A stretch of 64,000 nt of DNA from Deltaproteobacteria bacterium (GTDB taxonomy: Bacteria > Myxococcota_A > UBA9160 > SMWR01): contig PBYF01000052.1 of NCBI GenBank assembly GCA_002729515.1, positions 27,669-91,668 of the forward strand, given 5' to 3'. Of this stretch, positions 21,313-28,888 are shown piece after piece. Position numbers and translations under genes: made by a program. A model generated the notes under the pieces. It worked only from the letters and a program-made list of their open reading frames with translations, was not told the DNA's origin and ran no database searches. Positions within the stretch are counted from its first letter, which is position 1. The number at the start of each line of letters is the position of its first letter.

Positions 21313-22062
21313 ATGGATCGCGAGCGGATCCGCGAACTGATGGAGCGCGTGCGCGACGGAGACGTCGAGCCGGAGGAGGCCATCGAGGCGCTGGCGCAGC
21401 TGCCGTTCGTCGATGTGCCCGGTGCTCGCGTCGATACGCACCGCGCCCTGCGTGCTGGCCTGCCAGAGGTGGTCTACGCGCCCGGCAAGACCCCGGAGCA
21501 GATCGCCGACATCGTCGCGGCGCTGCGCCGCTCCGAGCAGCGGGTGCTGGTGACTCGCGTGTCTCCGGAGTGTGCAGAGGCCGTCTCTGGCCGCATCGGT
21601 GGGGGTGAGTACACGGCGCAGGGGCGGCTGCTCTGGTTCGGGCCCGCGCAGGTCGCCTGTGTCGGCAAGGGGAACATCGCGGTGGTATGCGCCGGTACCT
21701 CGGATCTGCCCGTGGCCTGCGAGGCTGTGGGCGTGGCGCAGCGCTTCGGCAATAAGGTCGAGCTCCTGGCCGACGTGGGCGTCGCGGGCCTTCACCGGCT
21801 CCTGGCGTCGAGCGAGGTGCTTCGCGGGGCACGGGTGCTCGTCGTCGTCGCCGGAATGGAGGGGGCGCTCCCGTCCGTGGTCGGCGGGCTCGTCGACAAG
21901 CCGGTGATCGCGGTGCCCACCAGTGTGGGGTATGGGGCTGCCTTCGGCGGTGTTGCGGCGCTGCTAGGGATGCTCACGAGCTGTGCGTCGAACGTCAGTG
22001 TCGTGAACATCGACAACGGCTTTGGTGCCGCCTATGTCGCGACCCTGATCAATCGGCTCTGA
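21313..22062 (+). CDS. larB: LarB, nickel-pincer nucleotide carboxylase
   Basis: A 249-residue LarB-type protein of the AIR-carboxylase superfamily. The family reaction is carboxylation and hydrolysis of nicotinic acid adenine dinucleotide to the biscarboxylated pyridinium mononucleotide used for the nickel-pincer cofactor. Helical N-terminal part (RDGDVEPEEAIEALAQLPF), then VVCAGTSDLPVACEA, ADVGVAGLHRL and VVVAGMEGALPSVVGGL, which are PurE-like nucleotide-binding loops. ATG start. Only three bases separate it from larC. Confidence 0.9.
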   Translation: MDRERIRELMERVRDGDVEPEEAIEALAQLPFVDVPGARVDTHRALRAGLPEVVYAPGKTPEQIADIVAALRRSEQRVLVTRVSPECAEAVSGRIGGGEYTAQGRLLWFGPAQVACVGKGNIAVVCAGTSDLPVACEAVGVAQRFGNKVELLADVGVAGLHRLLASSEVLRGARVLVVVAGMEGALPSVVGGLVDKPVIAVPTSVGYGAAFGGVAALLGMLTSCASNVSVVNIDNGFGAAYVATLINRL

Positions 22063-22065
22063 GCG

Positions 22066-23262
22066 TTGGCGCGTACCCTGCATCTGGATTGTTTTTCTGG
22101 GATCGCCGGAAACATGTTCCTCGGGGCCCTCCTCGACGCGGGCCTGTCGCGCAGAGCCCTTGCCGCCGAGCTCGCGGGATTGGAACTCGATTACAAGCTC
22201 GTGGTGCGCCGGGTGATGCGCGGAGCCGTTGCGGCGCGCCACGTGGAAGTGCGGGTACCGGCCCGGCGCGGGAAGGGAAAATCTGCACGGCACCACTCCG
22301 GGCGTCACTTCAGCGCGATCGAGCGCGTGCTGCGTCGTGCCCGTCTCGATACCCGCGTGCGCGAACGCGCACTGGCGATCTTCGAGACGCTGGCCCGCGC
22401 CGAGGCGAAGATCCACGGCGTTCCCATCGAAGAGGTCCACTTCCACGAGGTGGGCGCGGTGGACGCCATCGTCGACATCACCGGCGCGGCGGCGGCGTTG
22501 TCGCTTCTCGAAGTGGGAACCGTCACGGCTTCGCCGGTGGCTGTGGGAAGTGGGGGAACGGTGGAAACCCAGCACGGCAAGTTGCCTCTACCGGCACCGG
22601 CTACCCTGGAGTTGCTGCGGGGGATTCCGGTCGTACCCGCCCACGTGGACTGGGAGACGGTCACGCCCACGGGCGCGGCAATCCTCGGGAGTATCGCCGA
22701 GAGCTTTGGCCCGCTGCCCGCGATGACCGTCGAGTCGATTGGCCTCGGGGCGGGCGAGGAGCGCGAGGGTCCGTTGCCCAACGTGTTGCGTGCGGTGCTC
22801 GGTCGCGCCGGGGGTGCGGGCGCCGACCGGGTGGTACTGCTCGAGACGAACCTGGACGATCTGGTGCCGGAACACTTCGATCACCTGATGGAGCGTCTCT
22901 TCGAGGGTGGAGCCCTGGACGTCTCGCTCCAACCGTTGCAGATGAAGAAGAACCGTCCCGGCTTTCTCGTGCGTGTGTTGGCGCGTCCGTCCGAGCGGGT
23001 CGCGTTGGCGCGGATTCTCTTCGCCGAGTCGACGGCGATCGGTGTGCGGGTCACCGAGAGCGATCGCATCGTACTCGAGCGCGAGCACAGGCGCGTGCAG
23101 ACCCGCTACGGCCGGATCCGCGTGAAGCGCGTCTTCGACCCGGATGGCCGGGTGCACGTCTCGCCCGAGTACGACGACTGCAAGGCGGCGGCGGTGCGCA
23201 GCGGCACGCCGCTGCGCGAGGTGTTGCGTGTTGCCGAGGAGGCGGGGCGTGCCCTCGACTGA
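22066..23262 (+). CDS. larC: LarC, nickel-insertion protein
   Basis: A 398-residue LarC-family protein that inserts nickel into the pincer nucleotide, a CTP-dependent cyclometallase in known members. The start HLDCFSGIAGNMFLGALLDAGL, the central EVHFHEVGAVDAIVDI and GGTVETQHGKLPLPAPAT, and the C-terminal ETNLDDLVPEHFD are hallmarks. It is one continuous frame here, while Lactiplantibacillus makes LarC by ribosomal frameshift between LarC1 and LarC2. The start is TTG, immediately after larB. No larE or larA is in the window. Confidence 0.9.
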   Translation: MARTLHLDCFSGIAGNMFLGALLDAGLSRRALAAELAGLELDYKLVVRRVMRGAVAARHVEVRVPARRGKGKSARHHSGRHFSAIERVLRRARLDTRVRERALAIFETLARAEAKIHGVPIEEVHFHEVGAVDAIVDITGAAAALSLLEVGTVTASPVAVGSGGTVETQHGKLPLPAPATLELLRGIPVVPAHVDWETVTPTGAAILGSIAESFGPLPAMTVESIGLGAGEEREGPLPNVLRAVLGRAGGAGADRVVLLETNLDDLVPEHFDHLMERLFEGGALDVSLQPLQMKKNRPGFLVRVLARPSERVALARILFAESTAIGVRVTESDRIVLEREHRRVQTRYGRIRVKRVFDPDGRVHVSPEYDDCKAAAVRSGTPLREVLRVAEEAGRALD

Positions 23263-24051: not shown

Positions 24052-24081
24052 TTGGCAGCGAGTCTCTGGCGCTCCTAGGAT
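24052..24081 (+). promoter_or_regulatory. Sigma-70-type promoter of the histone gene
   Basis: TTGGCA (24052-24057) and TAGGAT (24076-24081) with an 18-base spacer match the housekeeping consensus at 5/6 and 4/6. Transcription would begin near 24088, about 28 bases before the histone ATG, with GGAGGGG as ribosome site. This suggests the histone is a separate transcription unit and not a tail of the larBC operon. Confidence 0.5.
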
Positions 24082-24115
24082 CCCCATCGAATTTCGAGAA
24101 CGACCGGAGGGGAAT

Positions 24116-24328
24116 ATGGCCGAACTTCCGAACGCGGTGATCAAGCGGCTTCTCACCAAGCACAGTGACGGGCTCCGCGTGTCGGGCTCGGCTCTCGGTC
24201 AGGCCGTTGCGGCCGTCGAGGGCTACGCCGCGCGTCTTGCACAGGAGGCCGCTGCATCTGCGAGCGCGAACAAGCGCAAGACGATCATGGACGGTGACAT
24301 CGAGGCCGCGCGGGCGCGCCTGGGCTGA
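24116..24328 (+). CDS. Archaeal-type histone (HMf-like) in a bacterium
   Basis: A 70-residue protein with one complete histone fold. Helix 1 is NAVIKRLLTKHS, loop 1 is DGLRVS, the long central helix runs over about residues 25-52, loop 2 is KRKTIM and helix 3 is DGDIEAARARL. Side by side with HMfB of Methanothermus as I recall it, both begin near ELP, both have RVS in loop 1, and both have RKTI followed by DIE-A in the third helix. By analogy it should dimerise and bind DNA through the paired loops. It has a strong GGAGGGG ribosome site and its own promoter. Similar small histones are known in Bdellovibrio and Leptospira. Confidence 0.85.
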   Translation: MAELPNAVIKRLLTKHSDGLRVSGSALGQAVAAVEGYAARLAQEAAASASANKRKTIMDGDIEAARARLG

Positions 24329-25393: not shown

Positions 25394-26425
25394 TCAGCAG
25401 CAGTCGAAGCCGCCGCTCACGTTGTCGTGCCACGGCGGGCGCCGCGAGAAGGCGGCGCGCTGGGCGGCGGCGGCAAGCGTGGCGGCGACGCGGATGACGC
25501 GGGGTCCGTCGCGGACGACTCGGGCGCGCAGGCTTTCGCGCCGGCCGAGTTGGCGCTGACGGTCGCCGTCGAATGCGACCACACCGGGGCCTTGCAGCTG
25601 GGTCCATTCTCCGAGCGGCAGGCGCCGGGCTTCGCGCACGTATGCGGTGCGGTAGAGGCCCGGCGAGATCGCGACGAGCAGCGGCTGGCCGCCGCCGCCC
25701 GGTGCCGTGCAGGTGACCTGGACGCCACAGTCATCGTCGCGCGTCACCGGCTCGAGGAGACCGCCGATTGGTGACGTGCCGACGGCGGCCGGCTCGCCTC
25801 GGGTCAGAACGAGGTGTCGGAGTTGCTCCGGATCGAAGGCCAGCAGGCTGCCCGGGTGGTCACCCTCCAGAACCGCAAGGTCGATCAGGGCGAGGTCGCT
25901 GGCGCCGTCGGAGAACTCGACCTCGATCCGCTTGCAGGGATGCGCTGCCTCGTCGACCGGGACGATACCGCTCGCCACGCAACCCGCGGCCGCACCCGCC
26001 GAGGTGGCTTCGACGAGTTCCGGAAACACGTTGTTGGTTCCCGTTGAGATCGGAACGATCGGTGCGTCGCGCCAGGTGCTGGCGACGATGCGGTTCGTGC
26101 CGTCACCCCCGAGCACGACGAGAGACGTGCAGCCGAGTTCGCGCAATCGCACGACCGCGGCGGCCGTATCCGCCGCGGTGGTCTCGATCGGACCGTCGAG
26201 CACGGACACGTCCGCGTGGAGTCGCAGCCCCTCGACGGCGCTCTGGCTGCAGCGGAAACAGTCGCGCATCAGTACGACACGACGAGCGCCCGCTGCCACC
26301 GCGCCCACCACGGCCCGCTGGATCTGGTTGCGCTTCATCTCGGGCGTTTGCTGGAGCGAACGCCCCAACAGCCGTCGCACGTCGCGGCCCGCCATCGGGT
26401 TTGCGACGATCCCGACCGTGCTCAG
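25394..26425 (-). CDS. ATP-NAD kinase-like protein, AcoX family
   Basis: A 343-residue protein of the NAD-kinase superfamily. It begins with VGIVANPMAGRDVRRL, has the phosphate-binding GGDGTNR and the second loop STGTNN, and carries a long C-terminal beta domain as in AcoX proteins encoded with acetoin-degradation genes. Whether it phosphorylates NAD is not known. No ATG, GTG or TTG lies near the conserved start. A CTG overlapping the stop of the upstream GST gene (CTGA) is the best candidate, so the exact N-terminus is uncertain. The C-terminus ends in FDCC. Confidence 0.7.
   Translation of the reverse strand: MSTVGIVANPMAGRDVRRLLGRSLQQTPEMKRNQIQRAVVGAVAAGARRVVLMRDCFRCSQSAVEGLRLHADVSVLDGPIETTAADTAAAVVRLRELGCTSLVVLGGDGTNRIVASTWRDAPIVPISTGTNNVFPELVEATSAGAAAGCVASGIVPVDEAAHPCKRIEVEFSDGASDLALIDLAVLEGDHPGSLLAFDPEQLRHLVLTRGEPAAVGTSPIGGLLEPVTRDDDCGVQVTCTAPGGGGQPLLVAISPGLYRTAYVREARRLPLGEWTQLQGPGVVAFDGDRQRQLGRRESLRARVVRDGPRVIRVAATLAAAAQRAAFSRRPPWHDNVSGGFDCC

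Positions 26426-27235: not shown

Positions 27236-28888
<1,653 letters not shown>

Follow-up and report, generated by a model that had tools for sequence, protein, structure and literature searches.

An archaeal-type histone retained in a bacterial lineage

We report that the genome examined here, along with most of its taxonomic class, carries a single small histone that has the full length and the DNA-contact residues of archaeal histones but lacks the residues that archaeal histones use to stack. The protein probably bends DNA as a dimer. Published surveys describe bacterial histones as short alpha3 types and nucleosomal-length histones as exclusive to archaea (PMC11390915, PMC12701072), and Schwab 2024 states that nucleosomal histones are exclusively archaeal. 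One survey set aside bacterial proteins longer than 65 residues when defining the curated bacterial singlet set (Hocher et al. 2023, PMC10627809). A family of 69-74 residues like this one would have been missed at that step, although an earlier listing of these sequences under another label cannot be excluded. If confirmed, the family would provide a bacterial clade in which an archaeal-type histone has been kept over deep time at one locus, together with a sister family that lost it, offering a natural comparison for what a histone does in a bacterial nucleoid and for how histones moved between domains.

Identification of the histone gene

The analyzed window is a 64,000-nucleotide stretch of contig PBYF01000052.1 (assembly GCA_002729515.1). 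A sequence-only reading had proposed that it encodes an archaeal HMf-type histone in a Gram-negative bacterium, from a lineage other than Bdellovibrio or Leptospira, with its own promoter and ribosome site. Our results support this proposal. The ATG-started open reading frame encodes a 70-aa protein, MAELPNAVIKRLLTKHSDGLRVSGSALGQAVAAVEGYAARLAQEAAASASANKRKTIMDGDIEAARARLG, and the locus is organized as follows, with helix alpha1 inferred from alignment to HMfB:

22066-23262 (+), larC, the conserved upstream neighbor (with larB and cheA before it)
24052-24057 (+), −35-like hexamer TTGGCA
24076-24081 (+), −10-like hexamer TAGGAT, with a spacer of 18
24106-24110 (+), Shine-Dalgarno-like GGAGG, 5 nt before the ATG
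24116-24328 (+), histone coding sequence, 70 aa, full HMf-type length
24125-24160 (+), helix alpha1 (residues 4-15), with invariant K10-R11 (R11 = HMfB R10)
24176-24184 (+), loop L1, R21-V22-S23 (HMfB R19-V20-S21); R21 is the sprocket arginine that other bacterial histones lack
24185-24271 (+), helix alpha2, full nucleosomal length
24275-24283 (+), loop L2, R54-K55-T56 (HMfB R52-K53-T54), DNA contact and RD clamp
24287-24322 (+), helix alpha3, not truncated, with clamp Asp D61 (HMfB D59) plus 9 residues
24404-24433 (+), weak terminator-like hairpin plus T-rich tail (0.6 such sites expected by chance)
27236-28876 (−), groEL, the conserved downstream neighbor (with groES), convergent

The protein matched the histone families PF00808 (E=1e-9, 38.9 bits against a cut-off of 21.4) and PF00125 (38.2 bits, cut-off 26.4), and 22 of 22 family members tested matched both. 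The local alignment score against HMfB was 63, compared with a mean of 27 and a maximum of 57 in 2000 shuffles. The short motifs that the sequence-only reading had aligned with HMfB (ELP near the start, RVS in loop 1, RKTI in loop 2, and DIE-A in helix 3) are present where it had placed them. The promoter-like TTGGCA-N18-TAGGAT (24052-24081) was the only such site in 651 bp, with 0.0 expected in shuffles. Among 48 distinct family members, an exact TTGACA occurs in the upstream 150 bp of 24, against 0.76 expected from shuffles, so the promoter is conserved as well. A GGAG-like site precedes the start codon in nearly all relatives of the same order. The gene is under purifying selection, with 8/5/30 differences by codon position against the sister genus.

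Distribution and synteny

To determine how widely the gene occurs, we searched whole genomes with PF00808; a single-sequence scan using strict exact 8-mer patterns had found only one close relative. The gene is present, always in single copy, in 50 of 91 genomes of the class, while none of the other 288 genomes sampled from the phylum has one. One family of the order (designated f5) has the gene in 0 of 30 genomes, and the rest of the class in 50 of 61. One further genome (G156) has the first 27 residues running into a contig end. Some absences are in incomplete MAGs, but genome G025 and the f5 genomes with a contiguous locus are clean.

In 24 genomes from eight families of the order, the gene sits in the order cheA, larB, larC, (alpha/beta hydrolase), histone, then groEL and groES on the opposite strand, as far as contigs reach. 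The same order is found in six genomes of a second order of the class (f12). In f5 and f10, the larB-larC and, where contiguous, groEL-groES neighbors are present without a histone between them. The simplest reading is one acquisition or retention before the class split, followed by later losses. A larB/larC/groEL tree was poorly supported and patchy, and we used it only to note that histone-less genomes fall inside the order. The adjacent larB and larC (window 21313-23262), involved in nickel pincer cofactor synthesis, hold a fixed position beside the histone across the class. A 334-aa protein at 25394-26398 (−), with an NAD-kinase N-terminal domain match (36 bits) and no NCBIfam name, lies between a UbiE-like methyltransferase and a GST and was not seen at this place in most relatives.

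Searches of phage and plasmid collections gave no real match, and thus no sign of a mobile or phage-borne copy. A search for archaeal histones in viral contigs, intended to deepen the alignment, likewise confirmed none. A 175-kb viral contig of unknown host (IMG/VR IMGVR_UViG_2860317346_000001; L103:2674-3303) does encode a 209-aa protein with an acidic N-terminal part and a histone fold (PF00808, 52.5 bits) that by eye resembles NF-YB/CBF-type histone folds.

Relationship to known histones

The family profile aligned end to end with archaeal HMfB/HMfA/HPhA over 68 columns (hhalign probability 96.7, E=3e-10). Among solved structures, the best single-domain matches were full-length archaeal histones such as HPhA and HMfA, then eukaryotic H3. 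The distance from the L1 Arg to the clamp Arg is 33 residues, identical to HMfB, and nine residues follow the clamp Asp, against ten in HMfB. In 48 distinct proteins, the residues equivalent to HMfB R10, R19, R52, K53, T54, and D59 are invariant, S21 is Ser in 47, and an extra invariant Lys precedes R10; the LP N-terminus is also shared. The family differs from HMf/HTk/HPh nucleosomal histones in its bacterial host, one residue inserted before L1, an alanine-rich alpha2, and dimer-dimer residues (L46, H49, L62) that are not conserved. The NCBIfam archaeal histone superfamily model (NF043032) scored 39.6 bits for this protein, below its cut-off of 50, and 0 of 379 phylum genomes exceeded that cut-off.

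The bacterial dimer histone HBb (Bd0055) of Bdellovibrio, an alpha3 family member, is likewise a bacterial singlet with the RD clamp and RKT loop and without the tetramer residues, but it has a shorter alpha2, a truncated alpha3, no sprocket Arg, and an S9-K10 motif (PMC10627809, PMC11317129). Hocher et al. call the short alpha2 diagnostic of bacterial singlets and note that R19 is not conserved in them (PMC10627809). By published numbering, HLp of Leptospira has S28/R55/D62 in 63 residues (PMC12701072) and HBb has S24/R51/D58 (PMC11317129). The L1 Ser to clamp Arg distance is thus 27 residues in these proteins versus 31 here, making their alpha2 four residues shorter, and their alpha3 is truncated. 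The present family therefore fails both features that define alpha3 histones, an alpha2 shorter by 4-5 residues and a truncated alpha3 (3-4 residues), and is more distinct from the Bdellovibrio and Leptospira histones than the sequence-only reading had supposed. Face-to-face (FtF) histones (HLp, HTkC), which are bacterial or archaeal singlets with the RD clamp, have a short alpha2, a one-turn alpha3, and conserved R48/N52 tetramer residues (PMC11390915, PMC12701072); here the R48-equivalent position is mostly Ser, and the N52-equivalent position is Asn in 9/48 and otherwise D/E/A. The DUF1931 pseudodimeric histones, which have a double fold without DNA-binding residues (PMC12701072), showed only weak profile similarity (14.3 bits, cut-off 21.8), and none was found in this genome.

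Proposed mode of DNA binding

We favor, with moderate confidence, a chromosomal, vertically inherited histone of the archaeal HMf (nucleosomal-length) type, predicted to fold as helix-loop-helix-loop-helix and to pair into a handshake homodimer, as expected from the single copy per genome. In this model, the dimer contacts DNA through two paired L1-L2 edges (R21/S23 with R54-K55-T56, held by the R54-D61 clamp) and the central alpha1 pair (K10-R11). The net charge is positive (+1 to +3, median pI 9.3). The HMf dimer-dimer residues are replaced: L46 is Ser in 34/48; H49 is Ala in 29/48, with no His among the six commonest residues; and L62 is mostly Lys/Arg/Ala (Lys/Arg in 31/48). Archaeal histones without H49 do not form stable tetramers (PMC10627809), and HBb, which also lacks these residues, is a dimer that bends DNA (PMC11317129). 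The dimers should therefore bind singly and bend about 30 bp of DNA without stable stacking, rather than form hypernucleosomes in the usual way, and the protein would then act as a nucleoid-associated protein alongside IHF. The dimer state, bending, abundance, and nucleoid role, the last two of which the sequence-only reading had raised as possibilities, are inferences. AlphaFold monomer models built from only two or three sequences, one of which placed a helix at residues 4-15, did not show the alpha2-alpha3 break (pTM 0.40 and 0.37), and a Foldseek search with such a model found nothing significant (best E 0.99, though the top-ranked chains were mostly histones); these results neither support nor refute the proposed fold.

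Wrapping through an unusual interface is the main alternative. The full HMf-type alpha2 and alpha3 lengths, the retained D61, and the presence of the HMf DNA-contact residues, including the sprocket arginine, would suit a nucleosomal histone that stacks dimers through a small-residue (Ala/Ser) four-helix interface into short hypernucleosomes. Given the loss of H49, L46, and L62, we consider this unlikely, although such an interface could still form tetramers in another way. It is also doubtful that the protein has a specialized role, for example as a local regulator of the neighboring chaperonin or lar genes or as a partner of another protein, and is not a general nucleoid protein. Its fixed position beside groEL/groES and larBC over the class and its dispensability in one family would fit such a role, but the invariant residues are general DNA-backbone contacts, the gene has its own promoter-like site, and there is no extra domain.

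Membership in the known bacterial alpha3 histones, with ends that happen to be longer, is less likely still. Bacterial dimer and FtF histones are reported from Myxococcota_A and Myxococcota (PMC11390915), possibly near this lineage, and the RD clamp is shared, but the helix lengths, the sprocket Arg, the absence of the S9-K10 motif, and the lack of a conserved FtF R48/N52 pair argue against it. Chance similarity or contamination from an archaeon is extremely unlikely despite the MAG origin (contamination estimate 7.66), given the same locus among bacterial genes in many independent assemblies of two orders, the 48 distinct sequences, and purifying selection.

It is possible, though less certain than the favored reading, that the whole class inherited one archaeal nucleosomal-type histone before it diversified and uses it as a main DNA-bending architectural protein in HU-less cells beside IHF. 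In this scenario, erasure of the four-helix-bundle interface converted a stacking histone into a single-dimer protein, a second and independent route to the mode of action of HBb.

Other nucleoid-associated proteins

The IHF/HU family (PF00216), whose small basic DNA-bending proteins are a probable functional analogue, is unrelated in fold and sequence: the histone had no PF00216 match, and the hhalign probability against the genome's own IHF-beta was 0.2%. All 80 genomes of the order searched have PF00216 proteins, usually two. In the window's genome, NCBIfam names them IHF-beta and IHF-alpha (L022:1501-1770 and L023:1501-1770), and no recognizable HU was found here or in the other class genomes checked. 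Family f5 lacks the histone and has no extra HU either in the two genomes checked; the histone is thus not essential to the wider lineage, and replacement of HU by the histone is not established. The sister-genus genome has a second, divergent IHF-alpha-like gene (L154; G001:C150:23579-23848).
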